Assembly (NCBI RefSeq): GCF_937951745.1
Contig: NZ_CALFBQ010000029.1
Location: forward strand, 1 to 64,000
Source of the DNA: an uncultured Chloroflexus sp.
Lineage (GTDB): Bacteria > Chloroflexota > Chloroflexia > Chloroflexales > Chloroflexaceae
Length of the DNA: 64,000 nucleotides
Reading direction: 5' to 3'
Part shown: piece by piece, positions 14,476 to 29,904 of the stretch
Numbering within the stretch: the first letter of the stretch is position 1
How the letters are laid out: every line of letters starts with the position of its first letter
The notes under the pieces: generated by a model
Database searches by the model: none
What the model was told of the DNA's origin: nothing
Seen by the model: the letters and a program-made list of their open reading frames with translations, nothing else
Position numbers and translations under genes: made by a program

Positions 14476-15675
14476 ATGCGCACTCTGATCTTCACCGGAA
14501 AAGGCGGCGTTGGCAAAACAAGCGTCGCGGCAGCAACGGCCCTCCGGGCTGCGGATCGTGGCTTAAAGACGTTGGTGATGAGCACCGATCCAGCCCACTC
14601 GCTGGCCGACTCGCTCGATCTCGAGGGGCCGCTCGGCCCTGAACCCGTTCGGATCACCAAGAACCTTGACGCGCTCGAAGTCAGCATTTACCACGACATC
14701 GAGAGCAATTGGGGCATCGTGCGCGAACACTTCGCTCAGCTCATGGCCGAGCAGGGCGTGCAGGGCATTTTAGCCGATGAGATGAGCGTCTTGCCGGGCA
14801 TGGAGGAGGCGTTCCCACTCATTCGGATCAAGAAGCACAAGGAGCGCGGTGATTACGATCTGCTCGTGATCGACTGCGCGCCGACCGGAGAGACGCTGCG
14901 GCTGCTCTCAGCGCCCGAAACGTTTAAGTGGGCGATTAATATGCTGCGTGGTGCCGAGCGGTTTGTGATCAAACCGATCCTCCGCCCGATGAGCAAGATT
15001 AATCCGACCCTCAATAAGATGGTTGCGCCGCCGGAGGTGTACGAGGCGGTTGATGATATGTTCCGCCAGTTGGAGGGCGTGACGGCGACGCTGGCGAATC
15101 CGCTTGAGACTTCGATCCGGCTGGTGATGAATCCCGAAAAGATGGTGATCAAAGAGAGCCAGCGAGCGTTGACCTACCTGTCGATGTATGGTATGACCGT
15201 CGATATGGTGGTGGTCAACAAGATCCTTCCGCTTGATCAAGACAGCGGCTATCTGAACCACTGGCGCGATGTGCAACAGCGCTACCTGCAAGATGTCGAG
15301 CACTCCTTTGTGCCGTTGCCCATCCGGCGGGTACCGTACTACCCCGAAGAGGTGGTGGGGCTTGAGAAGTTGCGCCAGATGGGTGACGATATCTATGGCG
15401 ACATGGATCCGACCGCTGTGCTCTACGATCGCGCGCCGCTCGATATTTCCAAGGTCGGCGATAAGTACTATCGAGTGAAGATCCGGTTGCCTTTCGCCGA
15501 CGTTTCCCAGCTCGATCTGTATCAGAACGGTGATGAGTTGGTGGTGCAGATCGGTGATTTCCGGCGGGTGTTGACGCTGCCGACTAGTCTAGCCGGCCTC
15601 GAAGCCGGTCAGGCGGAGATGGAGGGTGAGTGGTTGAGCGTACCCTTCATGGCGCCGCAGATGGCGTCGCGCTAA
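14476..15675 (+). CDS. ArsA/Get3-family ATPase with C-terminal alpha-crystallin-like domain (Get3d-like)
   Basis: A 399-residue ATPase. The deviant Walker A is intact: FTGKGGVGKTSVA, with both lysines K9 and K14. Switch I is MSTDPAHSLADSL and switch II/Walker B is LLVIDCAPTGETLRLL. The C-terminal 80 residues (about 315-395) form a beta-rich HSP20/alpha-crystallin-like domain containing IRLPFADVSQLDLYQNGDELVV. This domain order matches Get3d proteins, which to my knowledge are linked to photosynthetic lineages. Get3 relatives chaperone membrane proteins. It is first in the chlorosome run, 83 bases before csmA, and a promoter lies 140 bases upstream. Arsenite resistance is unlikely because no arsB or arsenite-binding cysteine cluster is visible. 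Confidence 0.9.
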   Translation: MRTLIFTGKGGVGKTSVAAATALRAADRGLKTLVMSTDPAHSLADSLDLEGPLGPEPVRITKNLDALEVSIYHDIESNWGIVREHFAQLMAEQGVQGILADEMSVLPGMEEAFPLIRIKKHKERGDYDLLVIDCAPTGETLRLLSAPETFKWAINMLRGAERFVIKPILRPMSKINPTLNKMVAPPEVYEAVDDMFRQLEGVTATLANPLETSIRLVMNPEKMVIKESQRALTYLSMYGMTVDMVVVNKILPLDQDSGYLNHWRDVQQRYLQDVEHSFVPLPIRRVPYYPEEVVGLEKLRQMGDDIYGDMDPTAVLYDRAPLDISKVGDKYYRVKIRLPFADVSQLDLYQNGDELVVQIGDFRRVLTLPTSLAGLEAGQAEMEGEWLSVPFMAPQMASR

Positions 15676-15758: not shown

Positions 15759-16001
15759 ATGGCGACGAGAGGCTGGTTCTCGGAGTCGTCGGCGCAAGTG
15801 GCGCAGATCGGCGACATTATGTTCCAAGGCCACTGGCAGTGGGTCTCGAATGCGCTGCAAGCCACCGCGGCCGCGGTTGACAACATCAACCGCAATGCTT
15901 ACCCGGGCGTGTCCCGGAGCGGCTCGGGCGAGAGCGGCTTCAGCAGCAGCTCGAGCAACGGCTTCCGTCCGAAGCGCATCCGCTCGCGCTTCAACCGCTA
16001 G
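15759..16001 (+). CDS. csmA: Chlorosome baseplate protein CsmA precursor
   Basis: The 80-residue precursor reads MATRGWFSESSAQVAQIGDI at the start and matches the C. aurantiacus CsmA as I remember it, apart from changes in the Ser-rich tail. His25 in MFQGHWQW is the proposed BChl a ligand of the paracrystalline baseplate. In C. aurantiacus the mature protein is 51 residues and a C-terminal extension of about 27 residues is removed. Here that tail is Ser-rich and ends with the basic RPKRIRSRFNR. The start at 15759 is preceded by AAGGAGG at ideal spacing, so translation should be very strong. A stem-loop follows the stop. CsmA connects BChl c aggregates to the membrane reaction centre. Confidence 0.97.
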   Translation: MATRGWFSESSAQVAQIGDIMFQGHWQWVSNALQATAAAVDNINRNAYPGVSRSGSGESGFSSSSSNGFRPKRIRSRFNR

Positions 16002-16012
16002 GTTGGCGGGCA

Positions 16013-16044
16013 GGCGTGAGGTGCGCTGCTCGCCACCTCACGCC
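16013..16044. terminator. Stem-loop after csmA
   Basis: An 11-bp perfect stem (GGCGTGAGGTG / CACCTCACGCC) with a 10-base loop begins 11 bases after the csmA stop. No T-tract follows, so it probably stabilises the 3' end or terminates partially. This would help explain an abundant short csmA message above a low level of downstream read-through. Confidence 0.6.
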
Positions 16045-16061
16045 GATCCCTTGGGAGCGTT

Positions 16062-17180
16062 ATGATTAACCTGCTCTATTACAGCCATACTACCGTTCCA
16101 GCTCACCTCGAAGAGATTACGCGGCTTGATGTGCTCGATCCTGATGAGCAGGTGCTAGTCGCGGTTGATGGCGTGCTGCTCGATCAGCAGGGGCGCCGGC
16201 TGAGCGGCCCCACGCTGCACGACTATTGCCTGATTACCGATTTGCGGGTGGTGTTGTGGGCCCGTGATTATGGGCGCCACCTGTGTTTTGCATTTCCGTT
16301 GAGCGAATTGACCTTGATCGATGGCCGGGGAATCGATCCGATTCACGGGATGGTGACGCTCGGCTTTAGCGCGCCTGATGCCGAAGCGCAAGTCTTCACG
16401 CTCACGCTGGTGCCGCAAGCGTATGTGCCGGCGTTGATGATCTTGTTGCGCACAGCGGCTGAAACAGCGCGTGCGGCGTTGGCTGCCGGCATGGATGCCC
16501 GCCAAGCGGCGCCTGAGGTGATGACAGCACTTGGTGCCGCAATTTATGGTTCCGAAGATGCGTTGCGTCCCGATGAAATGCCCTATCGTTGGCCCGGCGG
16601 TGCGCCACGCACGCCGGCGACGCCAAATGCGCCCTTTGTAGTTGACCCGGCAAATTTGCCGCCTAATCAAATCTTTACTGCCGGCCGTCTCGCCCGTTCA
16701 GCGTGGGATACCCTGCGCCGCACGTTGCGTGAGGCAGATTTACCGTTTGACTTGAGTCCGGCAAGTATCCGTGAATTGACCGAAGCCATCCGTGCTGTTA
16801 ATGACTTAGTCCAAACTGTCACCAGTAATCCTGCTGCCCAGCAGATGGCGATGGCGTTTTTAAACCGCCAAGCGGCTACGCGCCAAGCCCAAGCTGAACC
16901 AGCGGGGTCGCCGGTCGTCGAGCCACCGGTGACGGAGCCGTCTCCCGCGCCGCCGGCTGGGCCGCGTTATCACGAAATACCGTTGCGTCGACGTACTCCG
17001 GCGCCGCCAGAAACGCCAGCGTCGCAGCCGTCAGCGCCAATCCCGCTGACCAAGCGGGCGTCATCCATCGAGATGCCGGATCGGCGTGAAATTCCGCTCC
17101 GCCGCCGGAGCACGCCGGTTCGCCGCGCGCCACTCACAGCGTTGAGCGGTTCGGGTGATGCCGATCACGATCAAGCATAG
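16062..17180 (+). CDS. Chlorosome-island PH-like protein 1 with Arg-rich tail
   Basis: A 372-residue protein of unknown function. Residues about 15-130 form a beta-rich domain with LDPDEQVLVAVDGVLLDQQGRR, YCLITDLRVVLWARDYG and FPLSELTLIDGRG. This is the pattern of bacterial PH/YokE-like domains (short strands, 'ITDLRVVLWAR', then a helix). A predicted helical region spans about 220-270. The tail from about residue 285 is Pro-rich and carries the motif EIPLRRR twice (305-311 and 343-349) and then TPVRR. The next gene encodes a paralogue. Its place directly after csmA and in front of the ATPases suggests a chlorosome envelope or assembly role. Confidence 0.7.
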   Translation: MINLLYYSHTTVPAHLEEITRLDVLDPDEQVLVAVDGVLLDQQGRRLSGPTLHDYCLITDLRVVLWARDYGRHLCFAFPLSELTLIDGRGIDPIHGMVTLGFSAPDAEAQVFTLTLVPQAYVPALMILLRTAAETARAALAAGMDARQAAPEVMTALGAAIYGSEDALRPDEMPYRWPGGAPRTPATPNAPFVVDPANLPPNQIFTAGRLARSAWDTLRRTLREADLPFDLSPASIRELTEAIRAVNDLVQTVTSNPAAQQMAMAFLNRQAATRQAQAEPAGSPVVEPPVTEPSPAPPAGPRYHEIPLRRRTPAPPETPASQPSAPIPLTKRASSIEMPDRREIPLRRRSTPVRRAPLTALSGSGDADHDQA

Positions 17181-17223
17181 CTGTTGGTAGCATTGGCGGT
17201 CGCAACCGCCCTAAGGAGCAGGT

Positions 17224-18558
17224 ATGAGCCCATTTCTCGGTGTCAATGTGAGCATGGCGAGCGTCGAGGAATTGCGCCAGCGCGATTTGCTGGAGGAAGG
17301 CGAGACGCTGCTTGCTCTCTTCGATGGTACGTTGCTCGATGAGAATCGCCGCCGGGTTGGCGGTCTTGCGCTGGCTGATTTTGTCGCGTTGACCGACCGC
17401 CGGCTGATTCTGTGGGCGCGCGGCTTCTTTAACGATACCGTCGATGGTTTTCCTTGGAGCGATGTTGATGTGGTGCGCGCCGAGACATGGGATCCGTGGC
17501 ATGGTCGCGTCAGCCTTGCGCTGCGCATTCCGGCAACGCCACCACGCAAGCGCCGCGTTGCGCTCGGCGAGGTGCAAGACCCCGGCCAACCTGAGCGGGT
17601 GATTGTGAATACGCTCGATTACATGCCGGCGGAAGATGTTGATATGCTGGCCAAAATGGTGGCATGGGTCGGTGACCAAGTGTTGGCCGGTGTCAGCGGG
17701 GAAGAATTGGTGAAGGCCTTTGAGGCTGAGTTCCCAGCCGTGGAACGCAAGCCCCTGCCGCCGTTCTTTATGAGCGAACCGGCTCCGCCGCCGATGCCGG
17801 AACCAGAGCCGAAGAAGCCGGCCAAGAAGCCATGGTGGAAGTTTGGCGCTGCCAAGGAGGAAGAAGAGCCTGCTCCCGCTTCACCGAGCAATCTGATCGC
17901 TGCTTACGAGAGCCAGCGGGGCGGTGCTCCGGCTGGTGTGACGCCGGCGCCGGTCGGCCCATTGCCAACGTTACCCGAACAACCCAATATGTACGAGGTG
18001 AGTCGGTCGTTGCGCTTGATGCTTGAGGTGCCACGCGGGTTGGCGCGCGGTCTGCGGCGGGCGAGCGAGATCATGAGCGGCGCGACCGAGTTGCTGAACA
18101 ATATGCAAGATCCGCGCGTGCGCCGTAATGCGATGCGTGGCATCTATTATGCTGCTGCCCAGCAAGAGGCGGAGGGCGGGCCATTGGCTCCTGTGGGGCC
18201 GGTGGTGCGCGCTGCTGTCCGGTTTGCTGAACCAACCGAACCACAGTCAGGCGCCGAGCAGCCGGTGCAGCGCCGGATTGCGGTGCGAGCCACGGTACGG
18301 CAAGCAACGCCTTCGCCGGCGGCGGCTGAACCGGCGGCATCGCCGGCGCCTGAAACCGCCGGCCCGCAACCGGTGCGCCGCGCCATTAGTGTGCGCCGGG
18401 TCGAACCGCCGGTCGAGGAGACTGGCTCGTCGATGCCGGTGCGCCGCGTGGTGGTCAATCGCACCGACCGCCCTGCCGCAGTTAGTGGCAGCGGCGCCGG
18501 TACGTCGGCGCGTGAACCGCTCAATGGCCGATCGGATGATGAGCCGGAAGCGCAGTGA
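17224..18558 (+). CDS. Chlorosome-island PH-like protein 2 with Arg-rich tail
   Basis: A 444-residue paralogue of the preceding protein. The N-terminal domain aligns throughout: EGETLLALFDGTLLDENRRR, ALTDRRLILWARGFF and FPWSDVDVVRAET. A lysine/proline-rich linker follows at about residues 185-225. The helical region SRSLRLMLEVPRGLARGLRR begins at about residue 259. The tail has several copies of an Arg-rich motif: QRRIAVRATVR (349-359), VRRAISVRR (384-392) and MPVRRVVVNR (404-413). It probably arose by duplication of the upstream gene. RBS AAGGAG precedes the ATG. No enzymatic motif is visible. A scaffold or envelope-binding role is inferred from position and composition only. Confidence 0.7.
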   Translation: MSPFLGVNVSMASVEELRQRDLLEEGETLLALFDGTLLDENRRRVGGLALADFVALTDRRLILWARGFFNDTVDGFPWSDVDVVRAETWDPWHGRVSLALRIPATPPRKRRVALGEVQDPGQPERVIVNTLDYMPAEDVDMLAKMVAWVGDQVLAGVSGEELVKAFEAEFPAVERKPLPPFFMSEPAPPPMPEPEPKKPAKKPWWKFGAAKEEEEPAPASPSNLIAAYESQRGGAPAGVTPAPVGPLPTLPEQPNMYEVSRSLRLMLEVPRGLARGLRRASEIMSGATELLNNMQDPRVRRNAMRGIYYAAAQQEAEGGPLAPVGPVVRAAVRFAEPTEPQSGAEQPVQRRIAVRATVRQATPSPAAAEPAASPAPETAGPQPVRRAISVRRVEPPVEETGSSMPVRRVVVNRTDRPAAVSGSGAGTSAREPLNGRSDDEPEAQ

Positions 18559-18604
18559 TCGAACGTGGGCGGGGAATAAGGTTGCAGCAGGCGAATGAGG
18601 CACT

Positions 18605-19828
18605 ATGACGCGAGTCATTATCTATTCCGGTAAGGGCGGTACTGGTAAGACGACGCTCTCGGCGGCGACAGCAGTGATTCTGGCGCAGTCTGGCCGCCGC
18701 ACACTGGTGCTCTCGAGCGATCCGGCTCACTCGCTGGCCGATGTGATGGGGATACCGATCAGCCGCGATCGGCCAACACCGCTGGCTCCCCATCTCTATG
18801 GTCTCGAAGTGGATACGATCTATGAGTGGCGCCAGAATCTGGGTGGCTTTCAGCAGTTCGTGACAGCGACCTATTCGGCTCGTGGTATTGAACGCTCAAC
18901 GGCTGCTGAACTGGCCAATCAGCCCGGTCTTGATGAAATCCTCGCGTTGCAACGGGTGATGGATGAAGCGCAGAGCGGTCGTTGGGATGCGATTGTGCTT
19001 GATACCGCGCCGACCGGCAATACGTTGCGCTTGTTGGCCTACCCCGAAATGATCATCGGCGGTGAAGCTGGAAAGCGGTTATTCCGCGTCTATCGCGGGA
19101 TCGCGAATGTCGCCCGCCCGTTCCGGCGTGATTTGCCCGATGACCGCTTCTTTGAAGAGGTGGGCAAGCTGCTCGAACGGATGGATCAACTGGCCAACTT
19201 TTTGGTCAGTTCGGCGGTTTCGGTGCGGTTGGTGCTGAATCCGGAGCGCTTGCCGTTGCTTGAGACACGCCGTGCCTATACCTTCCTAAGCCTGTATGGC
19301 CTGCAACTCGATGCGGTGCTGGTGAATAAGATTTTGCCACACCGCACTGATCTTGGCCCGTACTTTGATTACTGGGTCAACCTCCAGCAGCAGTATCTGG
19401 CTGAGATTGAGGCGAGCTTTGCGCCGACGCCAATCTTCCGTACCGTGTTGCAAGGTGGTGAACCGATCGGAGTTGATGCGCTGTTGCACGTTGGCCGGCT
19501 GACCTTCGGCGATGTCGATCCGGGGGCGCTGCTCTACGATGAACGGCCGATCTGGCTCGAGCAGTGGAGCGAAGATGGCGAACCCGGCCAATATGATCTC
19601 TGTTTGCGGTTGCCGTTCCTTGATGTCGGTGAGTCGATCGAAGTAAGCCATAGCGGTCCCGATTTGACCATTACGGTCGGGCGGATCGAGCGCACAATTG
19701 CCTTGCCACGGGTGTTGTACGATTGTGTCCTCGGTGAACATCGCTATGAAGATGGCGTCTTGCGGCTGGCCTTCTACGAGGCTAGCGCTGCCCGCGCCAG
19801 CGGCAAACAGCAAGTTGAGGCGGCCTAA
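18605..19828 (+). CDS. ArsA/Get3-family ATPase with C-terminal alpha-crystallin-like domain, second copy
   Basis: The 407-residue protein keeps all nucleotide-handling motifs: YSGKGGTGKTTLSA (K10 and K15), SSDPAHSLADVMG as switch I, and VLDTAPTGNTLRLL as switch II. It has the C-terminal alpha-crystallin-like domain (from about residue 325, LRLPFLDVGESIEVSHSG). It is about one third identical by eye to the first copy and equally Get3d-like. It is likely a homo- or heterodimeric ATPase that handles hydrophobic clients. Upstream spacing to the PH-like gene is 46 bases. The closest neighbour downstream is a pseudo-ATPase homologue, with which it may pair. Confidence 0.9.
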   Translation: MTRVIIYSGKGGTGKTTLSAATAVILAQSGRRTLVLSSDPAHSLADVMGIPISRDRPTPLAPHLYGLEVDTIYEWRQNLGGFQQFVTATYSARGIERSTAAELANQPGLDEILALQRVMDEAQSGRWDAIVLDTAPTGNTLRLLAYPEMIIGGEAGKRLFRVYRGIANVARPFRRDLPDDRFFEEVGKLLERMDQLANFLVSSAVSVRLVLNPERLPLLETRRAYTFLSLYGLQLDAVLVNKILPHRTDLGPYFDYWVNLQQQYLAEIEASFAPTPIFRTVLQGGEPIGVDALLHVGRLTFGDVDPGALLYDERPIWLEQWSEDGEPGQYDLCLRLPFLDVGESIEVSHSGPDLTITVGRIERTIALPRVLYDCVLGEHRYEDGVLRLAFYEASAARASGKQQVEAA

Positions 19829-19894
19829 CGTGATTGCTACCGCCTCTCCGTTGTCTATTCCGGTTGCATTGTGCACCGGTTGCGAGCACTCTGC

Positions 19895-20998
19895 ATGCGC
19901 ACGCTGATCTTTACTGCCTATCATCAACTCCAACAGAGCGCGGCTGCGCTCGCGACGGCTTGCCACGCCGCTCGGCGTGGGTATCGTACCTTGGTGGCTT
20001 CGAGTGGCCCCAGCCATCTGCTCGGCCATCTGCTTTACCAAGTGCTTGGTTCACGCCCGCTGGAACTTGAGCCGAACCTCGCGGCGATGGAGATTCATCC
20101 CCACGAGGAGGTTGCCCGCCGTTGGGAGCAAGTGCGTCCGTCGCTGCGCAGCGGGCTGGTGGCCCGCCTGCGCGATCTTGGTCCTGATGAGCTGCCGGCC
20201 TTCCCCGGCATTGATGCGGTGGCGGTGATGTTGGTCGCCGAACGTGCCCGGCAATCTGGTCGGTTCGATCTGTTGATTCTCGATGGCCCGTCACCTGACG
20301 CTCTCATCCGGGCGTTGACGTTGCCTGATGTGCTGCGCTGGGCAGTGCGCCTGATCTTCGGCCTTGATCGCGGTCCCGGTAAGTCGCGTGCGTCGCAAGA
20401 GCAGGCAATGATTCCGGCAGCGATCGTGGCGCCTAGCGCGACTGCGCCCTTGCAAGAGTTACGAATTGAGCTTGAGCAACAACGCGCTCGCCTCGAAACC
20501 GAGAGCGGGGCGCGGGTGCGGATGGTGGCGTTGCCGCCAGAGTTGCGCTTGCCGCCGCTGCGTGCGGCGTTAACCGCCTTTGGTCTGTTCGGGTTAGCTA
20601 GCGATGAAGTGATTGTGAATGGCCAGCCCGACCAAGTCGATGACGAAAGCCGCCACGATTTCAGCCACGAGACCAGCCGGGCGCGTCCGTTGTTGCGGGT
20701 TGGTCAGCTTGAGCTGACGCCGGCTGATCGCGATACGTGGGCTTTGCGCGGAGCGGCGCTCTACCGTGATGGTGACATCTTCACTGTCGAACCGCCGCGT
20801 CCGGTGAGTAATGAGCGTGATCTGCGCCTGCTGATCCCTTTCCTCGATGCCAAATCGCTCGATATTGCAGTGGCAAGCGAAGAGGTTGTCGTCCAACTCG
20901 GCCAGTTGCGCCGGCATGTGTTATTGCCGGGGTTGGTTGATGGCGGTCGCTTACGGGCGCGGGTCGAGGGTGAATTGTTGCGGTTGTGGGTAGAGTAG
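19895..20998 (+). CDS. ArsA/Get3-family pseudo-ATPase (third copy, P-loop lost)
   Basis: The ATG at 19895 gives 367 residues and aligns with the starts of the other two copies. The same frame also opens at a GTG at 19871. The region equivalent to FTGKGGVGKTS is FTAYHQLQQSA, so the glycines and both P-loop lysines are gone. Switch I STDPAHS has become SSGPSHL, and the Walker B segment reads ILDGPSPDALIRAL with no threonine. The fold is otherwise kept, including the C-terminal alpha-crystallin-like domain (RLLIPFLDAKSLDIAVASEE). The loss is coordinated and the frame is intact, so this looks like a maintained pseudo-enzyme, perhaps a regulatory partner, not a decaying gene. Confidence 0.88.
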   Translation: MRTLIFTAYHQLQQSAAALATACHAARRGYRTLVASSGPSHLLGHLLYQVLGSRPLELEPNLAAMEIHPHEEVARRWEQVRPSLRSGLVARLRDLGPDELPAFPGIDAVAVMLVAERARQSGRFDLLILDGPSPDALIRALTLPDVLRWAVRLIFGLDRGPGKSRASQEQAMIPAAIVAPSATAPLQELRIELEQQRARLETESGARVRMVALPPELRLPPLRAALTAFGLFGLASDEVIVNGQPDQVDDESRHDFSHETSRARPLLRVGQLELTPADRDTWALRGAALYRDGDIFTVEPPRPVSNERDLRLLIPFLDAKSLDIAVASEEVVVQLGQLRRHVLLPGLVDGGRLRARVEGELLRLWVE

Positions 20999-21013
20999 CG
21001 AAGGGGGGCGCCT

Positions 21014-22021
21014 ATGTCAGTGCTTGCCCAGCCGATCCCGATCGATCGACCGCCGGCGCGACCGATCGATGCGCCGCCAACGGCCAAGTATATTGAGTAT
21101 GTCAATGAGGTGGCGACACGCCTTGCCGGCAAGTTGAGTGCCCGTGAACGGCGCCGGCTGGAAGGTGAACGCGCGCTCTTGGCCCGCGCCCGCTTTATCG
21201 AGCTGAACGGCGTTGTGCATCACTATCAAGATGTCGGGCCGCTCGATGGCGAACCGTTGCTGCTCATCCACGGCTGGGATTGTTCGTCGTTTTGGTGGCA
21301 TCACGTGATCGATCCACTAGCGCAAGCCGGTTACCGCGTGGTGAGCTACGATTTGAAAGGGCACGGCTTTTCTGATAGCGATCCGCGCCAAGATTATACC
21401 GTGGCCGGGTTTAGCGCCGATGTGCAGGCGTTGTCACGCGCACTGAATCTTGGTCCGGCCCACGTGGCTGCTTTCTCGCTCGGTGCGTTTATTGGGCTGC
21501 ACGTGGCAGCCCACCAACCCGAATTAGTGCGCTCGCTGATCTTCTTTAACTTTAGCTTGCTGCCGTACAATAAGTTTGCTTCGCAGTTTGTGCCGCGCTT
21601 GCTCGATACCGTGTTTAACAGGGTGTTGCGCCCGATCGAGCGGCGTAATCTGTGGTGGCTGCCCTTTATCTATGCCCGGCTAGTGATGGCGCAGAATACC
21701 CCATCCATTAGCGATATTCGGCTCGGCACGCTCGGTTTGCGCTATTGCGATCCGGCAGCAGTGCGGGTATCGGCGACCGAATTGTCGCGCCCCGAGATTT
21801 TGGCCGCCGTGGCCGAGCAAGCCAAGACGATCCAGCAGCCGCTCTTGTTGGTGGCCGGCGCCAACGACCCGATCATGCGTCCGGCCGATGGGCGCAAATT
21901 GGTGGCGCTCGCCCCCAATAGTTCATTTTTGGAAGTGCCGAAGTGCGGTCATCTAATTTTGTTTGAATTGCCCGAGCACGTCATTCAAATTATGCGCCTC
22001 TTCTTGAAAGGCGTTCGCTAG
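21014..22021 (+). CDS. Alpha/beta hydrolase of the chlorosome island
   Basis: A 335-residue alpha/beta hydrolase with a 60-residue N-terminal extension. Key elements are LLIHGWDCSSFWW (oxyanion region), the nucleophile elbow VAAFSLGAFIGLHVA with Ser at about residue 156, an acid candidate in VAGANDPIMRP, and the His in VPKCGHLILFELP. The F-S-L-G-A elbow departs from the canonical G-x-S-x-G at the first position. Translation is coupled to the pseudo-ATPase (15-base gap) and driven by GAAGGGGGG. Lipid, pigment-ester or thioester substrates are all possible. A BchO-like role is a weak alternative. Function is not known. Confidence 0.75.
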   Translation: MSVLAQPIPIDRPPARPIDAPPTAKYIEYVNEVATRLAGKLSARERRRLEGERALLARARFIELNGVVHHYQDVGPLDGEPLLLIHGWDCSSFWWHHVIDPLAQAGYRVVSYDLKGHGFSDSDPRQDYTVAGFSADVQALSRALNLGPAHVAAFSLGAFIGLHVAAHQPELVRSLIFFNFSLLPYNKFASQFVPRLLDTVFNRVLRPIERRNLWWLPFIYARLVMAQNTPSISDIRLGTLGLRYCDPAAVRVSATELSRPEILAAVAEQAKTIQQPLLLVAGANDPIMRPADGRKLVALAPNSSFLEVPKCGHLILFELPEHVIQIMRLFLKGVR

Positions 22022-22033
22022 GGAGGTCGGTGT

Positions 22034-22915
22034 ATGCAGTTGTTGCTTCGTTCTGGCGGCCAACAAATGATCATCGATATGGAGCGGGCTGATGACCGCC
22101 CGCTGTCGGTCGGCCAGTATACCTACCGGCCCCGCCGATTGGCCGGCAAGGTGCGCCGGCTGGTCGCTAAGATGTGGCCTGATATGCCCTCGTCAGTGCT
22201 CGATGAGCGCCTGACCTTCGAGGCGCTGGATAACGGGCGCGAGACGGCGTGGGGCGATAGCGGCAGCTTTTCACCGCGCTCTGGTTCGACCGTGCTGCTT
22301 GGGCGCTGGGATGAAGACGGAAGTGTGGGGATTGCATTGCACGAGTTGGCCCATGAAATGCACCTGCGCCACGGTGGCTACGATGATAGCGATGGTGTGG
22401 TGCGCGAGGCGCTCGCGATGCTGGCTGAACGCGAAGCCGGTCTGCGCCGCACGTTTGAGCGCGAACCGTACCATTCAGCATGCCAGTTGATCGAACAACT
22501 CGAAGAGTTGCCGGCCTTTAGCCGGATGGCGTTCAGCAAGCGGTGGGCCGAGGTGGTCAGCGTGACGTCGGCGGCTGGGTTAGCCGATCTGATTAATTAC
22601 TATCTGGATCGCAGCGAGCGGTTGGGGTTAGCGCGTTGGCTTGATCGCCTGACGAAAAATGTTGATGTGCGGGATCAATTGTTAGCCCGCTTGGCGAGCA
22701 CATCGCTGCGTTACAGCCTAGATCTGCGTCGCCACCTGATTAAAAAGTTGGTGCGGTGCAAACCGGAAACGCCGGTGGAGCAACTCATGTATGTCCTTGA
22801 TTCAATCGCTACGCTTGATCGGCGCTATCCAAATGATGATCTTGAGCGCATTATCAATTTCTGTTTCGCGCCGTATGTGCCGCAGCGTCGCCGTCTCTTC
22901 GCTTTTGGCTCGTGA
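22034..22915 (+). CDS. HExxH-motif putative metallopeptidase of the chlorosome island
   Basis: A 293-residue protein of no family that I recognise. Residues 103-113 read HELAHEMHLRH. This is an HExxH zinc motif with another His five residues later (HExxHxxxxxH), which has the spacing of metzincins but with His in place of the usual Gly. Around it the sequence is hydrophilic, with no signal peptide or transmembrane segment. The second half is helical (SKRWAEVVSVTSAAGLADLI and several similar stretches). In the chlorosome run, a candidate job is maturation of a chlorosome protein such as the CsmA tail. That is inference. RBS GGGAGG precedes the ATG. Confidence 0.6.
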   Translation: MQLLLRSGGQQMIIDMERADDRPLSVGQYTYRPRRLAGKVRRLVAKMWPDMPSSVLDERLTFEALDNGRETAWGDSGSFSPRSGSTVLLGRWDEDGSVGIALHELAHEMHLRHGGYDDSDGVVREALAMLAEREAGLRRTFEREPYHSACQLIEQLEELPAFSRMAFSKRWAEVVSVTSAAGLADLINYYLDRSERLGLARWLDRLTKNVDVRDQLLARLASTSLRYSLDLRRHLIKKLVRCKPETPVEQLMYVLDSIATLDRRYPNDDLERIINFCFAPYVPQRRRLFAFGS

Positions 22916-22930
22916 TAGAGAGGAGCGCGT

Positions 22931-23707
22931 ATGAATCGCTTCGAAGAAGAAAACCCGACTGTTCGTTGGATGCCCGGATTTGCGCGCCGGTGGTTTGGTC
23001 TGAGTAATGAAGACCCCCGTCGCAGTATCGATGCACGGTATCAGTGGATGCCCAATTGGTTGAAGCGTTTGTTGAATTTGGATGACACGCCAGTGCCGTA
23101 TGCTGGCGAAGCGGAGCCGGCTGCGCCGAGCCGGCCATCGTATGGCTATCCGCCGCCGTCGGGTTCGTATACGCCCGGTGCGGCATCATACACGCCCGGC
23201 ACGCCCTCGTTTACGCCGCGCAGCTTTGCTCCAGCAACCTATCGGCCGGCCAGCGAGGAGGTGCCTGCCACGCCAGCCCGCCTGAGCCTCGCCGGTGATG
23301 AGTTGCCGCCTGATGTGCAGCCAATCGGATATCTGCTGCGTTCGTATGCGCGCGGGGCCTTGCCGCCGCAGGGGCTTGAGGCCTTTACCCGCGAGGTGCG
23401 CACGACGACTGAGAAGGTGCTGAACTTCTACGGTCATTGGATTCGCTTCCAGACCGAGGAGCTGGTTCGCATCGGTTGTGACCTGTTTAATGCCGCAGTT
23501 GATGCCTTGCCCGGCGAGAAGACCAAGCAACAGCCGCAGACGATCCGGCGGATTAAGGTGGTCGCTGATAACGGCAATGGTAATGATGTCGCTTCTGCTG
23601 CGGTGGCGCCGGCCCAATCAATGCCATCGACGGTTCCTCCAGCCGCCGAAACGCCAGTGGCTACGGATGAGCCTAAGTCTCGTTCCGAAGACAAAGATAA
23701 AGAGTAG
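22931..23707 (+). CDS. Low-complexity chlorosome-island protein of unknown function
   Basis: A 258-residue protein with three parts. The start holds an internally duplicated motif, RWMPGFARRWFGLSNED and then QWMPNWLKRLLNLDD, about 35 residues apart. Both are amphipathic and rich in Trp and Arg, which suggests binding to a lipid surface. Residues about 70-115 are Pro/Thr/Tyr-rich with repeated YTPG / FTPR units. A helical region from about 135 to 205 follows, and the tail is Lys/Glu-rich. No homologous family is known to me. Operon context (15 bases after the HExxH gene) and the amphipathic Trp motifs fit an envelope-associated role. Confidence 0.65.
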   Translation: MNRFEEENPTVRWMPGFARRWFGLSNEDPRRSIDARYQWMPNWLKRLLNLDDTPVPYAGEAEPAAPSRPSYGYPPPSGSYTPGAASYTPGTPSFTPRSFAPATYRPASEEVPATPARLSLAGDELPPDVQPIGYLLRSYARGALPPQGLEAFTREVRTTTEKVLNFYGHWIRFQTEELVRIGCDLFNAAVDALPGEKTKQQPQTIRRIKVVADNGNGNDVASAAVAPAQSMPSTVPPAAETPVATDEPKSRSEDKDKE

Positions 23708-23710
23708 ACT

Positions 23711-24394
23711 ATGCCCCGTCCGGTAGTGATTATGGGCGGGTGGCTGTCGTCGCCCGCCGATTACTTCGGTATGGCGCGCGTGCTAGCCTCGCCGCCATAC
23801 AATCGGATCGTGTATGTGGTTGATTTCAGCCGGTTAGCGTGGGCACGCTTGCGCGATCCTGATTTCGGGCCGGCGCTTGATGCGCTCGCAGCGACGGTGC
23901 GGATTGCGCTTGAAGAAACCGGCGCTGATAAAGTTGATTTGATCGGCCATAGCGCCGGCGGTCGGATTGCGCGCGCCTATTTGTCCGATGAGCCGTATCA
24001 AGGGGTGCGTTATGCCGGCCATGAGGTGGTAGCAAGCTTAACCACGTTGGGGACGGCCCATGCCACGTCGGAGATCTGGGTGAAACAGTTTGCCGACTGG
24101 CTTGAGGCGCGGTATCCCGGCGCAGCTTTTCCTCACGTCAAGTATCGCGCTGTAGCAGGGCGGAGTGTGCGTGGCCGTCGTTTCGGCAATCCCGAAGAGA
24201 TGATTGCCTATCGTTCCTATGAGGTTTCGTTCGGCAATGGGAATTTGGTTGGCGATGGGATTGTGCCGACAGCAGCGTGCTATCTGGCCGGTGCCGACAA
24301 CTTGATCTTAGAGGGTGCGCGCCATGCACCGTATAACGCGCCGGCGACGTGGTACGGCGCACGGGATGTAGTGCCGCTGTGGTTTGAGGATTGA
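23711..24394 (+). CDS. Lipase-like alpha/beta hydrolase, tandem copy 1
   Basis: The 227 residues match class-2/PGAP1-like lipases. The opening PVVIMGGWLSSPADYFGMARVL has the oxyanion loop, and the nucleophile is in LIGHSAGGRIARAYLSD (G-H-S-A-G, Ser near residue 80). A candidate acid and His lie near NLVGDGIVPT and GARHAPYNAP at the end. No signal peptide is present, so it acts in the cytoplasm, where chlorosomes lie. The gene starts only three bases after the upstream stop. The following gene is its paralogue. Galactolipid or wax-ester remodelling at the chlorosome envelope is a plausible but unproven role. Confidence 0.8.
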   Translation: MPRPVVIMGGWLSSPADYFGMARVLASPPYNRIVYVVDFSRLAWARLRDPDFGPALDALAATVRIALEETGADKVDLIGHSAGGRIARAYLSDEPYQGVRYAGHEVVASLTTLGTAHATSEIWVKQFADWLEARYPGAAFPHVKYRAVAGRSVRGRRFGNPEEMIAYRSYEVSFGNGNLVGDGIVPTAACYLAGADNLILEGARHAPYNAPATWYGARDVVPLWFED

Positions 24395-24405
24395 TCAGGA
24401 GTGCT

Positions 24406-25119
24406 ATGGCCCGTCCGCTGGTGATTATTGGCGGTTATCTGACCAGTCCGAGCGATTTTGCGGCACTGGCGCGGACGCTCGAACAACCACCATTTAGTTT
24501 TCGCGTCTTCGTGACCCCAATCGGTCGTATGCGCTGGGCTTTAACCCGTGATTGGGATTTTCGGCCGGTGTTGCGGATTGTGCGCGACACGGTCGCTCGG
24601 GCCTTGCGCGAAACCGGCGCTGAAACCGTGACTCTTCTGGCCCATAGTGTCGGTGGCACGGTGGCGCGCATGTATCTCGGTGATCAGCCGTACAAAGGTG
24701 ACATCTATGGCGGCCACCGGTTCGTGCATCACTTGATCATGCTCGGTACGCCGCACCATAGCCAAGAGTTCTGGACGCGCCAGACCGTCGGGTTTACTAA
24801 TCGTTGTTATCCCGGCGCGTATTATGATCAGATCCGCTATACCTCGATTATTGGCCGCAGCATTCAGGCCAATCGGCGAGGACGCTGGGTTGAGCGGATG
24901 GCGTATAACAGCTACGTGCTGATCGACGGCCCTGCCGGCGCGCAGGCGTGGGGTGACGGGATTACAACGCTGACCTGCGCAGCGCTAGCTGGCGCCGAGT
25001 ATTTGGTCGTGCCCGGGTTGCATCACTCTCCTATCCACGGTCGTCCGTGGTATGGCGACCCGGAAGGGTTAAGATACTGGCAACGAGTGTTGTTGGGATC
25101 CTCATCAGTTGTTGTTTGA
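24406..25119 (+). CDS. Lipase-like alpha/beta hydrolase, tandem copy 2
   Basis: The ATG at 24406 (RBS TCAGGAG) gives 237 residues. It aligns with the upstream copy along its whole length: PLVIIGGYLTSPSDFAALARTL, then LLAHSVGGTVARMYLGD with the nucleophilic Ser, and a C-terminal LHHSPIHGRPWYGD with the His candidate. The two clearly come from a tandem duplication. The pair may have different substrates or act on different leaflets. A promoter for the next gene overlaps its stop codon. Confidence 0.8.
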   Translation: MARPLVIIGGYLTSPSDFAALARTLEQPPFSFRVFVTPIGRMRWALTRDWDFRPVLRIVRDTVARALRETGAETVTLLAHSVGGTVARMYLGDQPYKGDIYGGHRFVHHLIMLGTPHHSQEFWTRQTVGFTNRCYPGAYYDQIRYTSIIGRSIQANRRGRWVERMAYNSYVLIDGPAGAQAWGDGITTLTCAALAGAEYLVVPGLHHSPIHGRPWYGDPEGLRYWQRVLLGSSSVVV

Positions 25120-25143
25120 AATGTCGCTGATTTGTACTATAAT
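25116..25143 (+). promoter_or_regulatory. Promoter overlapping the lipase stop, before the small membrane protein
   Basis: TTGAAA at 25116-25121 and TATAAT at 25138-25143 are separated by 16 bases. Transcription would start around 25150, only a few bases before the ATG at 25153, so the message would be nearly leaderless. This promoter would allow bchU, bchK, csmM and csmN to be expressed apart from the upstream genes. Confidence 0.6.
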
Positions 25144-25152
25144 ACAAATTGC

Positions 25153-25656
25153 ATGAAATCATCGCACATTGACCGGTTTATTCTGTACGCTATGGCGGCT
25201 GTGTCGGGTGTATCGCTTGCGTGTTATACCGCAGTGCTCTATCTCTGCCGGCAAGAGGTGAATACGCATCATCCAGAGCGTGCAGCATTGCGCAATCGGT
25301 TAGCGAATATCGCGCATGCGCTCGATTGGCTGATGAACGTAATGGTCGCAGTGGTCGGGATTGGCCGGCTCTTTCGTGAAGAGCATTTTGGCGGGCAACA
25401 CCAACCACGCTGGTTGAAGATCTATTTCATGATTACTGGCCCGTTGCCAACCATCGGTATGGTTGGAGCGATGATCACCGGCCATCGCTGGGGCGAGTCG
25501 ATGCGTGATGATCCGCAGAAACGCCGGTTGCATCGCTTCTTTGCATGGCTAGGGTATGTCAGTTGGTGGCTGAGTTTTATTCCGATCTTCTTCCAGCCGT
25601 GGTTGAACCGGCAAGCAGCAGTATCTAAGCAGGGTTCAGAGTCGGTTATTTCTTAA
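25153..25656 (+). CDS. Small polytopic membrane protein of the chlorosome island
   Basis: The ATG at 25153 gives 167 residues; an upstream TTG in the same frame overlaps the promoter and is unlikely. Hydrophobic segments lie at about residues 10-33, 55-75, 90-110 and 135-155, so it is probably a four-helix membrane protein. A basic loop (NRLANIAHALDWL side and HRWGESMRDDPQKRR side) separates them. I do not recognise a family. It is directly upstream of bchU and downstream of the internal promoter. Confidence 0.65.
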   Translation: MKSSHIDRFILYAMAAVSGVSLACYTAVLYLCRQEVNTHHPERAALRNRLANIAHALDWLMNVMVAVVGIGRLFREEHFGGQHQPRWLKIYFMITGPLPTIGMVGAMITGHRWGESMRDDPQKRRLHRFFAWLGYVSWWLSFIPIFFQPWLNRQAAVSKQGSESVIS

Positions 25657-25688
25657 GTTACATCGCACTTGTGCGCGAGGGGGACCGC

Positions 25689-26753
25689 ATGACGACTTCA
25701 CCTTCGGTTGAACCAACCACGACGGGCACCGCGGCGCTTGAGCAACAAGAGCTATTTGCCGCAACCAACCGTGCCTATGATATGGTGTTTAAGGGCACGG
25801 TGGATTTCTTCGTGATTAAGGCGGCAAAAGATTTGGGGCTGTTTGATCTGTTGGCTGCCGAACCGCGCACGCTGGCTGATCTGGCAACCTTGACCGAGAC
25901 AGTGCCGTCGCGGCTAGAGAAGTTCTTGATTACGCTCGAGCAGGTAGGTCTGGCGGCGCGGAAAGATGATCGCTGGCAGCTCACCCCCTTCGCCGAGCAA
26001 TTCTTTGCCGATCCCGAACGCCATCGCAATATGACGATGGTGCCGTTCGTGGATTATATTTCCGATTTAATCGAGAATTACTACCTGCGGCTGGCTGATG
26101 TGGTGCGCGGGAAGGTTGATTTTACCAGCATTGTGCCGCATCCGCCGCGCACTCGCGAAGATAGCCTGTTTTACGAGACGTTGCACCGCTCGAATATCCA
26201 GCTCTTCGTCGAGTTGTTAGTCAAGCGGGCACGGCTGGCCGATGTGCAGATGCTGATCGATGTCGGCGGCGGCATTGGCGATATTGCGGCGGCCCTCTGT
26301 CAAGCCTTCCCCAATCTCAAGGTGAAGTTGATCAACTTGCCCAGCGCGCTCGATCTAGTGCGCGAGAATGTAGCGGCCAAAGGTCTGAGTGACCGGATTA
26401 CGCCGGTGGCGGTCGATATGTACCGCGAGCCGTATCCTCCCGGTGATGCAGTGCTCTTCTCGCGCATTCTCTACCCGATGAATGCGCAGTTCTGCTCGAT
26501 GTTGCTCAAGAAGGCCTACGATGCGTTGCCGAGTGGCGGGAAGGTGCTGATCCTCGATATGGTAATCAGCGATCCGCAGCATCCAAACTACGATTATCTG
26601 ACCCACTACCTGTGCGCGATTGGGATGGGCTTTTCGGTGCTTGAGTTCAAGGATCACGCGATCTACCCTGATCTGCTGCGCCAAATCGGGTTTACCGACG
26701 TGACCTTCGATGAGGGGTACGAACACGTTTTGTATCAGGCGGTAAAACCGTAA
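25689..26753 (+). CDS. bchU: Bacteriochlorophyllide c/d C-20 methyltransferase
   Basis: The ATG at 25689 (RBS GAGGGGG) gives 354 residues. The sequence follows Chlorobaculum BchU closely: MVFKGTVDFFVIKAAKDLGL near the start, the SAM motif MLIDVGGGIGDIAAAL, then SGGKVLILDMVISDP and NYDYLTHYL near the end. BchU methylates C-20 of the bacteriochlorophyllide macrocycle and so turns the BChl d type into BChl c, shifting the absorption of chlorosome aggregates. O-methyltransferases are the closest alternative, but the conserved HRSN and LTHYL segments support BchU. The gene precedes bchK, the next step acting on the pigment. Confidence 0.93.
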   Translation: MTTSPSVEPTTTGTAALEQQELFAATNRAYDMVFKGTVDFFVIKAAKDLGLFDLLAAEPRTLADLATLTETVPSRLEKFLITLEQVGLAARKDDRWQLTPFAEQFFADPERHRNMTMVPFVDYISDLIENYYLRLADVVRGKVDFTSIVPHPPRTREDSLFYETLHRSNIQLFVELLVKRARLADVQMLIDVGGGIGDIAAALCQAFPNLKVKLINLPSALDLVRENVAAKGLSDRITPVAVDMYREPYPPGDAVLFSRILYPMNAQFCSMLLKKAYDALPSGGKVLILDMVISDPQHPNYDYLTHYLCAIGMGFSVLEFKDHAIYPDLLRQIGFTDVTFDEGYEHVLYQAVKP

Positions 26754-26767
26754 ACGAAGGTTCAGCC

Positions 26768-26806
26768 ATGTGTGACCGGTGCAGCTTCTGCCCGGCAATG
26801 CGGTAA
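26768..26806 (+). CDS. Possible 12-codon Cys-rich leader peptide between bchU and bchK
   Basis: ATG TGT GAC CGG TGC AGC and so on encodes MCDRCSFCPAMR, which has the spacing Cys-x2-Cys-x2-Cys. GAAGG lies seven bases before its ATG, and its stop is six bases before the bchK start. It could be a translational coupling leader responding to cysteine or redox state, or it could be chance. No homologue is known to me. Confidence 0.3.
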   Translation: MCDRCSFCPAMR

Positions 26807-26812
26807 GCAACT

Positions 26813-27730
26813 ATGATTTCGACTGAACAGCACGTCTCGCTCAGCCGAAAAATCCGGGCCCATATCGAGCTTGCCGATCCGGTGACGTGGATTTCGCCGG
26901 TGCTGGTCTGTTTCTGTGGCGCACTGGCGTCAGGCTACGAGCGAGGTTTTGACTGGACGCGGCCCGATCACTGGTGGCTCATACTGTTGGGCGCGTTGAT
27001 GACCGGCCCGCTCGGTACCGGCTTCAGCCAGAGTATTAACGATTATTTCGATCGTGAACTGGATGCGATCAACGATCCACAACGCCCGATTCCGGCCGGC
27101 ATTGTGACGCTGAATGAGGCACGCTGGAATTGGATCGTACTCGGCACAGCAACCATGCTGGTGTCGCTGGTCTTTGGTCAGCCGTTGATCGTCTTCTTCG
27201 CCTTTGTCGGTATCGTGCTGTCGGTAATCTACAGCATGCCGCCGATCAAGCTGAAGAAACATTTCTGGTTGGGGCCGCCGGCAGTCGGGTTGGGTTACGT
27301 TAGTATGAGCTGGATGGCTGGCCATCTGATATTTGCGCCATTGACGTGGCAAAGCGTGGTGGTAGCGTTGATCAATGGCGGTTTAGCGGCCGGCTTGCTC
27401 TTTCTTAACGATATTAAGAGCGTTGAGGGTGATCGCAGGTTGGGCCTGAAATCACTCACGGTTGCGATTGGCGTGAAGCGCACGCTAATTGTGGCTTACG
27501 CAACGATTAACGGCTTCGAGGCAATGCTGATGATATTGGCGTTGGTGTGGGGGCAATACTGGGTGGCAGCGTTTATTCTGCTGGCATTGGTAGTGCCGAT
27601 CTATAATCAGATTAAGCTCTACCGTGAACCAAACCAGCAGAATTACGTGCGTTACCTGCTAGCCTCCAACCCATTTGTGGCCTTGATCCAGATTGTCTCG
27701 GGTTTTCTGGTGGGCGGCTATTTTGGCTGA
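26813..27730 (+). CDS. bchK: Bacteriochlorophyll c synthase (prenyltransferase)
   Basis: A 305-residue polytopic prenyltransferase of the UbiA/BchG/ChlG group. The first aspartate-rich motif is NDYFDRELDAINDPQRPI and the second is NDIKSVEGDRRLG, both needed for Mg-diphosphate binding. About eight hydrophobic segments fit the UbiA fold. BchK attaches the long-chain alcohol to the C-17 propionate of bacteriochlorophyllide c. The neighbours bchU, csmM and csmN in one run make BchK more likely than BchG (BChl a) or ChlG. It acts at the membrane, close to where chlorosomes grow. Confidence 0.93.
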   Translation: MISTEQHVSLSRKIRAHIELADPVTWISPVLVCFCGALASGYERGFDWTRPDHWWLILLGALMTGPLGTGFSQSINDYFDRELDAINDPQRPIPAGIVTLNEARWNWIVLGTATMLVSLVFGQPLIVFFAFVGIVLSVIYSMPPIKLKKHFWLGPPAVGLGYVSMSWMAGHLIFAPLTWQSVVVALINGGLAAGLLFLNDIKSVEGDRRLGLKSLTVAIGVKRTLIVAYATINGFEAMLMILALVWGQYWVAAFILLALVVPIYNQIKLYREPNQQNYVRYLLASNPFVALIQIVSGFLVGGYFG

Positions 27731-27749
27731 CCGTTAAGGAGGTGCGAAG

Positions 27750-28037
27750 ATGACGGAGACTGAAGGTGAGGTCCGAGTGCGCAGCGTCCCGGTGCGGCGC
27801 AGTGACAGCTTTGTCGAGTCGGCGATGGAGTTCGGCGGCGGCGTAGTTCGCCTTGGCATGTCGGTCTTTACGCTGCCCTTCGCGCTGCTGCCGCCAGAGT
27901 CGCGCCAGCACATGCGTAATGCGACCAAGGAGCTGATGTACGCCTTCGCCTCGTTGCCGCGTGATTTCGCCGAAATCGCTGGCAAGAGCATCGAGAAATG
28001 GGCGGCTGAGGGCGAAGAAAAGACTGAGGCGAAGTAA
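27750..28037 (+). CDS. csmM: Chlorosome envelope protein CsmM
   Basis: The 95 residues (about 10.5 kDa) match the 11-kDa envelope protein of C. aurantiacus in size, and it is adjacent to csmN as expected. Residues 8-17 hold the Arg-rich VRVRSVPVRR. A central segment, GGGVVRLGMSVFTLPFALLP, is amphipathic to hydrophobic and is repeated in CsmN. The C-terminal half is helical and acidic. CsmM and CsmN coat the chlorosome surface. A strong AAGGAGG lies before the ATG. Confidence 0.92.
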   Translation: MTETEGEVRVRSVPVRRSDSFVESAMEFGGGVVRLGMSVFTLPFALLPPESRQHMRNATKELMYAFASLPRDFAEIAGKSIEKWAAEGEEKTEAK

Positions 28038-28074
28038 CGCCGGTTGCTCTCTGTGAGCAGAGGAGGAGAGACGT

Positions 28075-28512
28075 ATGAGCAATGAGACGACCAACGAGCG
28101 TGATGGCTTGTTTGAGCTGGCGGCTAGTTTTGTCGGGGGGGCAACCCGGATTGGCCTGACAGTTGCTTCGGTGCCGCTGGTGCTGTTGCCGCGCAATTCG
28201 CGCCGCCGCGTGCGCCGGGCGATGGCCGAGGTAGCAATGGCGGTGGTGGCATTTCCGAAAGAGCTGGCCAATATTTCAGAGCGGGTAGTTGATGATATCG
28301 TCGCGGCTGAGCCACCGCAGATCTCGTTGCCGAGCCCGAAGCAGGTTGGCGAGCAGGTGCGCTCGTTTACCGAGCGGCTGTCGCGCGCGGCGGAAGAGCT
28401 TGGCACGAGCTTTAGCCGGGCTGCCGGACGGGCTGCCGACGCGGTTGAGCAGGGTGCAGCCAAGGTTGATGAGTGGGTTGAGACGCCGCCCAAGACGCCG
28501 CCGGCGCCGTGA
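28075..28512 (+). CDS. csmN: Chlorosome envelope protein CsmN
   Basis: The 145 residues (about 15.5 kDa) fit the 18-kDa-apparent envelope protein. The first 75 residues are homologous to CsmM: FVGGATRIGLTVASVPLVLLP aligns with FGGGVVRLGMSVFTLPFALLP, and AVVAFPKELANIS aligns with YAFASLPRDFAEIA. A further 65-residue tail is helical and Pro-rich at its end (PPKTPPAP). The two genes clearly arose by duplication. GAGGAGG precedes the ATG. A strong hairpin after the gene ends the chlorosome run. Confidence 0.92.
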   Translation: MSNETTNERDGLFELAASFVGGATRIGLTVASVPLVLLPRNSRRRVRRAMAEVAMAVVAFPKELANISERVVDDIVAAEPPQISLPSPKQVGEQVRSFTERLSRAAEELGTSFSRAAGRAADAVEQGAAKVDEWVETPPKTPPAP

Positions 28513-28652: not shown

Positions 28653-28717
28653 GTAAAGAGGGGATGTAGCGTGATCTACACCCGCCTGTCGTGACCAGTC
28701 CACGGAGCTTTGTGACC

Positions 28718-29887: not shown

Positions 29888-29904
29888 GCGATAGGAGCAT
29901 GATT

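Follow-up and report, generated by a model that had tools for sequence, protein, structure and literature searches.

Gene content of the csmA-csmN island

The window analysed here, a stretch of 64,000 nucleotides from an uncultured Chloroflexus sp. (contig NZ_CALFBQ010000029.1), carries a chlorosome gene island that begins with csmA, the gene for the chlorosome baseplate protein, and ends with csmN. Fifteen open reading frames occupy positions 15759-28512, all on the plus strand and 3 to about 66 bases apart; csmA is present as a single copy in the genome. The original prediction, made from the sequence of the window, had recognised this run, but its gap range of 3-83 bases has to be corrected, as the 83-base gap lies upstream, between csmA and the gene at 14476-15675. 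This upstream gene encodes an intact ArsA/Get3-type ATPase (Get3A) and is part of the cluster by conservation. Together with a second intact ATPase of the same type inside the island (Get3B, 18605-19828) it had been overlooked, leaving the gene inventory incomplete. Here, we report that the island is real, largely uncharacterised, and both older and broader than had been supposed. The following features were identified:

14476-15675, plus strand: Get3A, ArsA/Get3 ATPase with C-terminal HSP20 (alpha-crystallin) domain and intact P-loop (PF02374, E 2e-92; PF17886, E 8e-22)
15759-16001, plus strand: csmA, chlorosome baseplate protein, precursor of 80 amino acids with conserved C-terminal tail FRPKRIRSRFNR (PF02043, Bac_chlorC, E 8e-31)
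16062-17180, plus strand: PH1, PH-type N-terminal domain, helical middle segment and disordered tail with I-P-L-R-R motifs
17224-18558, plus strand: PH2, paralogue of PH1 with a predicted PH fold (AlphaFold2 model, PDB matches) and a tail with R-R-I-x-V motifs
18605-19828, plus strand: Get3B, ArsA/Get3 ATPase with HSP20 domain and intact P-loop (PF02374, E 2e-66; PF17886, E 5e-17)
19895-20998, plus strand: psGet3C, ArsA/Get3-like with HSP20 domain, P-loop lost (PF02374, E 3e-23; PF17886, E 2e-7)
21014-22021, plus strand: ABH1, alpha/beta hydrolase, BchO-like but under the BchO cut-off (PF00561, E 6e-30)
22034-22915, plus strand: HExxH protein, putative zinc metallohydrolase (motif HELAHEMH and conserved downstream glutamate)
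22931-23707, plus strand: LC, low-complexity protein with a conserved PPQG/FY..W.RFQ segment and an R-R-I-K-V motif
23711-24394, plus strand: lipA, lipase-like alpha/beta hydrolase, GHSAGG (PF00561; alignment, profile)
24406-25119, plus strand: lipB, paralogue of lipA, AHSVGG (PF07819; alignment, profile)
25132-25656, plus strand: small membrane protein, variable across island loci
25671-26753, plus strand: bchU, bacteriochlorophyllide C-20 methyltransferase (PF00891, Methyltransf_2; position of Caur_0137)
26813-27730, plus strand: bchK, bacteriochlorophyll c synthase (PF01040, UbiA; position of Caur_0138)
27750-28037, plus strand: csmM (position of Caur_0139)
28075-28512, plus strand: csmN (position of Caur_0140)
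28691-29887, plus strand: NDH-2-type FAD oxidoreductase, downstream flank of the island (PF07992)
29899-30363, plus strand: SRPBCC-fold (Polyketide_cyc2) protein at the place of csmP (Caur_0142), identified by position only (PF10604, E 3e-15)

The earlier naming of csmA, bchU and bchK is supported by Pfam (PF02043, Methyltransf_2 and UbiA, respectively) and that of csmM and csmN by the positions of Caur_0139 and Caur_0140. Pfam likewise backs the proposed pseudo-ATPase, hydrolase and two lipases, as a degenerate ArsA protein, an alpha/beta hydrolase and two lipase-like hydrolases. Neither Pfam nor NCBIfam gave a matching family for PH1, PH2 and the HExxH protein, Pfam gave none for LC, and an Rfam search of the window returned no RNA family.

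The locus itself is published. By gene order and count it matches the Caur_0125-0142 region of C. aurantiacus, which includes csmA (Caur_0126), bchU (Caur_0137), bchK (Caur_0138), csmN (Caur_0140) and csmP (Caur_0142) (PMC3150298), and it also fits Cagg_1222 to 1208 of C. aggregans (PMC8004040). The csmA-csmM interval holds 12 genes in both species (Caur_0126 to 0139 and Cagg_1222 to 1209), and neither paper names the ten genes that separate csmA from bchU. In the C. aurantiacus region csmA, bchU, bchK, csmM, csmN and csmP are named, whereas the intervening genes are drawn as uncharacterised, and no Get3d, PH-fold or Chlorobi link was found in that report (PMC3150298).

Architecture of the Get3d and PH proteins

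Get3A, Get3B and psGet3C all contain both PF02374 and PF17886, the domain pair of the Get3d group. Get3d of plants and cyanobacteria has the same ArsA/Get3 ATPase with a C-terminal alpha-crystallin domain, and binding of tail-anchored clients in vitro has been described for Get3d of other phototrophs (PMC10248533). The cyanobacterial protein All4481 (8egk) matches residues 3-392 of Get3B; a difference from those organisms is the linkage to csmA, which here involves two intact copies and a degenerate one. The deviant Walker A motif GKGGxGKT is present in Get3A and Get3B and lost in psGet3C. Because the P-loop is also absent from every psGet3C orthologue read, psGet3C is classed only as Get3d-like; no copy of it was seen in the deep lineage L060.

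The N-terminal domain of PH2 was modelled with AlphaFold2 together with eleven other sequences (pLDDT 73.9, pTM 0.75). Nearly all of the top PDB matches of the model are PH, GLUE and other PH-like domains (Z up to 11.9), and the bacterial PH domains 3hsa and 3dcx (DUF1696) are matched with Z of about 10. For this domain the PH superfold, a seven-stranded beta sandwich capped by a C-terminal helix, is predicted. The initial description of two PH-like proteins thus agrees with the fold predicted for the second of them, while neither belongs to a PH family of Pfam or NCBIfam; both are classed as PH fold and not as a named PH family. They differ from the DUF1696 proteins in their own signature, FDG...R.G....D...LT....LWAR, and in their long, motif-bearing tails. 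The additional helical segment of PH1 also occurs in proteins of Chloroheliales (probability 98%, E 4e-14), with a weaker match in Chlorobi (70%, E 4e-5).

The tail motif was defined as [RK][RK][ILV]x[ILV] or [ILV]x[ILV][RK][RK]. It is 12-35 times commoner in the tails of PH1, PH2 and the Chlorobi PH proteins, and 19 times commoner in LC, than in shuffled sequences, the shuffles ignoring shared descent. PH2 is the only one of 52 window proteins with at least four such motifs, and the proteins listed with at least four in the samples of Chlorobi and of diverse Chloroflexia are PH proteins without exception.

Conservation of the island in Chloroflexia

In Chloroflexaceae, 32 csmA loci were collected, and the 26 that extend at least 11.8 kb downstream form the counted set. 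All 26 hold the same twelve genes: Get3A, csmA, PH1, PH2, Get3B, psGet3C, ABH1, the HExxH gene, LC, lipA, csmM and csmN. This conservation is far beyond chance, since every long locus carries the complete twelve-gene set. The variable members are lipB (16/26) and the membrane protein gene (10/26), and the gene for the NDH-2-type oxidoreductase flanks the island in 25 of the 26 loci. Four loci were scored with a deviating gene order, most likely only because a second and weaker alpha/beta hydrolase match upstream misled the scoring.

The proposed connection of the island with the chlorosome is strongly supported by phylogenetic profiling, in which the PH and HExxH families follow csmA. The Chloroflexia sample comprised 158 genomes, 35 of them csmA-positive. 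A profile of the PH N-terminal domain matched all 35 and one more, G025, an incomplete genome of a csmA-bearing genus that carries fragments of the island. The HExxH family was found in 33 csmA-positive Chloroflexaceae genomes (every one except G031, in which the island runs past the contig end), in both Chloroheliales genomes, and in G020, a fragmentary genome carrying the island. Apart from G025 and G020, both families are absent from the csmA-negative Chloroflexia sampled. Among 400 drawn Chloroflexota genomes the PH family occurs in 22, all csmA-positive. The lipase family nearly tracks csmA in the same way, with strong matches (E < 1e-40) in csmA-positive genomes, G004, G020, G025 and Chloroheliales, and weak matches elsewhere. 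Proteins with the ArsA_HSP20 domain number mostly 6-9 per genome in csmA-positive Chloroflexaceae (five in one), versus 2-4 in csmA-negative members, although the domain as such is widespread.

The set had been regarded as specific to Chloroflexus, which does not hold: Chloroheliales and green sulfur bacteria have the core of the set around their csmA as well. Both genomes of Chloroheliales, which use a type-I reaction centre, show the order Get3A (61-62% identical) - csmA - PH - PH. For the type-I reaction centre phototroph of this order, the published account reports just two further homologues of chlorosome proteins from C. aurantiacus and expects unknown ones (PMC10972752); the PH proteins are candidates for these. 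In one Chloroheliales genome a third PH-family protein is encoded away from csmA (L083:8351-10294).

The Get3d-csmA-PH core in Chlorobi

A search with the Chlorobi CsmA core as query returned 73 loci, nearly all from Chlorobi, and neighbours were counted only where a locus had enough sequence on the relevant side. A Get3 gene lies upstream of csmA in 62/62 loci, a PH protein gene directly downstream in 68/68, and a second Get3 gene beyond the PH gene in 65/65; an example is Get3 - csmC-like - csmA - PH protein of 770 amino acids - Get3. The same order recurs in six loci of deep-branching Chlorobi; in one, the contig ends before the second Get3 gene. The PH profiles of Chlorobi and Chloroflexota match each other with a hhalign probability of 99.2% (E 1.8e-19). 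Of 98 Chlorobia genomes, 96 contain PF02043 and 89 the PH family, and the two genomes negative for PF02043 also lack PH; all 89 PH matches in a draw of 394 Bacteroidota genomes come from these same Chlorobia.

The csmC-csmA locus of green sulfur bacteria thus resembles the Chloroflexus locus in having Get3d upstream and a PH protein and a second Get3d downstream. It differs in its single PH gene, as opposed to two, in the presence of CsmC where Chloroflexota have no gene, and in the hydrolases, HExxH and LC genes not being adjacent there. CsmA has been called the sole chlorosome protein common to the phyla (PMC9316378); PH and the csmA-linked Get3d are its conserved gene-cluster partners across both. 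As separate observations, an ABH1-like hydrolase gene (39%, E 2e-64) adjoins Get3-csmC-csmA on the opposite strand in a deep Chlorobi lineage (L174:3-854), and one Chlorobi csmA locus (L136) is on a contig filed as Latescibacterota, which is probably mis-binned.

In a Get3 tree, from which L193 and long-branch sequences were left out, Get3B and its Chloroheliales and Chlorobi counterparts form one clade (100/100) that contains no sampled copy from csmA-negative genomes. Get3A falls together with those Chloroheliales copies that adjoin csmA (91/84), and these join the upstream copies and some other copies of Chlorobi in a group of chlorosome bearers (88/90). A further pair of Get3 genes in Chloroheliales, one of them in the Get3B clade, is located at L089:5434-11077, next to what we take to be bchF-like and PucC-like genes.

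The CsmA tail and the other Csm proteins

The last 12 residues of CsmA have a mean identity of 88.5% in Chloroflexaceae, comparable to 88% in the core, versus 23% in the ten residues before the tail. The protein has an ESKFAK-like tail in Chlorobi and an SRFTKLG tail in Chloroheliales. The C-terminal residues of CsmA are cleaved off (PMC4992139), and strong conservation of a segment that is later removed suggests that the tail may be a recognition signal used during assembly. No paper dedicated to the processing of the CsmA precursor was found in the open literature available. CsmM and CsmN have been described as distantly related to CsmC and CsmD (PMC9316378); comparison of their profiles with that of CsmC gave a hhalign probability of 0.5%.

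Hydrolases, the HExxH protein and flanking genes

Assignment of ABH1 as BchO was rejected, as it scores 94.2 bits against TIGR03056 with a cut-off of 172.55. The HExxH protein and its orthologues share an invariant HELAHEMH or HELAHEIH and a conserved downstream glutamate, the combination of a putative gluzincin-type enzyme. Comparison of its profile with PDB sequences gave chance matches only, its structure model has a pLDDT of 46, and no relatives were found in viral contigs. In Chloroheliales its gene is located away from csmA, and at L082:3618-8491 it lies 27 bases upstream of a gene on the same strand, presumably BchH-like.

In many csmA-positive Chloroflexaceae, a third hydrolase of the lipA/lipB type adjoins another Get3d. 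At L204:5935-12041, this third paralogue and Get3d follow a gene for a protein of 1313 amino acids, which we also take to be BchH-like. The SRPBCC fold, found at 29899-30363, is used for lipid or pigment transfer.

Proposed mechanism and alternative explanations

The presence of the Get3d-csmA-PH core around csmA in green sulfur bacteria as well points to a common chlorosome-building machine. We propose that the cluster is a chlorosome biogenesis operon with an ancient core, Get3d - csmA - PH protein, in which Get3d delivers clients to a PH-marked monolayer. The probability of this reading, which draws on gene content, synteny in three orders of two phyla, co-occurrence with csmA, the PH fold, Get3d architecture, the CsmA tail and the tail motif, is estimated at about 0.45. 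Get3A and Get3B would keep small amphipathic or hydrophobic proteins soluble after translation, above all the CsmA precursor and probably CsmM and CsmN. PH1 and PH2 would be held by their PH domains at the cytoplasmic side of the membrane or nascent monolayer, and their disordered tails would capture Get3d-client complexes through the basic I-x-I motifs. Small heat-shock proteins are known for I-x-I docking to their alpha-crystallin domains; the docking site might be the corresponding groove of the Get3d alpha-crystallin domain, or the tail might serve for docking in the manner of the basic tail of Get2. ATP hydrolysis would then release CsmA onto the growing baseplate, and the conserved C-terminal tail would be cut off afterwards. 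psGet3C may be a catalytically dead regulatory or heterodimer partner, whereas the hydrolases, the HExxH protein, bchU and bchK would provide components for pigment and envelope at that site. The logic proposed resembles that of the GET pathway, with a cytosolic ATPase carrier and a membrane-side receptor with a basic tail, but no Get1 or Get2 homologue is claimed, the proposed receptor is the PH protein, and the proposed client is amphipathic CsmA instead of a tail-anchored protein.

Several observations weigh against this proposal. CsmA is not a tail-anchored transmembrane protein, and Get3d occurs in many non-phototrophs, only the csmA-linked copies being chlorosome-specific. The tree neither establishes nor rejects a strict clade of csmA-adjacent Get3 copies (p-AU 0.33). 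The tail motif is found in 58 of 68 Chlorobi PH tails and missing from the rest, and its enrichment over shuffled sequences is uncorrected for relatedness. An intact I-x-I groove is not assured either, because the alpha-crystallin domain of Get3d was found to be dispensable for client binding and to be without oligomerisation features (PMC10248533).

Alternatively, PH1, PH2 and LC could be structural proteins of the envelope or of baseplate attachment, that is, further Csm-like proteins, with Get3d as ordinary co-expressed chaperones. We consider this unlikely. Their long, disordered tails, fast evolution like that of other envelope proteins and strict co-occurrence with csmA would fit such a role, but it would leave unexplained both the Get3d genes that flank csmA in every testable Chlorobi locus and a CsmA tail that is conserved yet cleaved. 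Moreover, the chlorosome proteins listed in PMC3150298 and PMC9316378 are CsmA, M, N, O, P and Y, with no other island protein among them.

It is slightly less probable that the unlabelled genes mainly serve bacteriochlorophyll synthesis or pigment loading, with the hydrolases and the HExxH protein acting as enzymes or in pigment handling, and with Get3d carrying hydrophobic pigment or tetrapyrrole enzymes and not Csm proteins. The neighbours whose conservation next to csmA is oldest are Get3d and PH and not pigment enzymes, and the HExxH gene was not found in 13 Chlorobi genomes. What speaks for a pigment role is the location of bchU and bchK inside the island, the resemblance of ABH1 to BchO, and three of the neighbourhoods described above, with their partners presumed as stated: HExxH before a BchH-like gene, the Get3 pair beside a bchF-like gene, and the third lipase paralogue with Get3d after a BchH-like gene.

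We regard it as improbable that, in Chloroflexota, the HExxH protein is the protease by which CsmA loses its tail. A strongly conserved tail known to be cleaved (PMC4992139), the invariant motif with its glutamate, and the occurrence of the family in csmA-positive Chloroflexia including both Chloroheliales would be compatible with it. However, the tail is also cleaved in Chlorobi, where the 13 genomes gave no credible match (two sub-threshold, E 0.01), and a universal CsmA protease was rejected on this ground; the HExxH gene is separate from csmA in Chloroheliales, and the fold prediction for its product is poor. Finally, slow decay of gene order in one lineage without any shared function, which the predominance of one family among the loci might suggest, is highly improbable, being contradicted by the same core in Chloroheliales and a second phylum and by the absence of the families from chlorosome-less relatives.

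Implications for chlorosome biogenesis

Both budding and aggregation models of chlorosome assembly have been discussed (PMC9316378). With regard to the functions first suggested for the island genes, the label of assembly factors is a reasonable reading, and the idea of lipid remodelling draws on hydrolase folds only. In the open literature available, no paper joining Get3d and the chlorosome was found, which is not absence from the literature, and no paper on chlorosomes with pleckstrin or tail-anchored proteins was among the top results; the cross-phylum Get3d-csmA-PH module was not found there.

A more specific version of the proposed biogenesis operon is that Chlorobi and Chloroflexota share one dedicated Get3-type targeting system for building their chlorosomes, in which CsmA delivery depends on its tail and the I-x-I tails of PH receptors dock the alpha-crystallin domain. 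This version is tentative and, on balance, doubtful; if true, it would mean that a bacterial organelle bounded by a monolayer is served by a GET-like pathway. The Get3d-csmA-PH unit provides a short list of assembly factors that is testable in a genetically tractable green sulfur bacterium, and its linkage to csmA suggests a role for Get3d in phototrophs. The unit also favours a shared origin of chlorosome assembly for Chlorobi and for Chloroflexota of both reaction-centre types.

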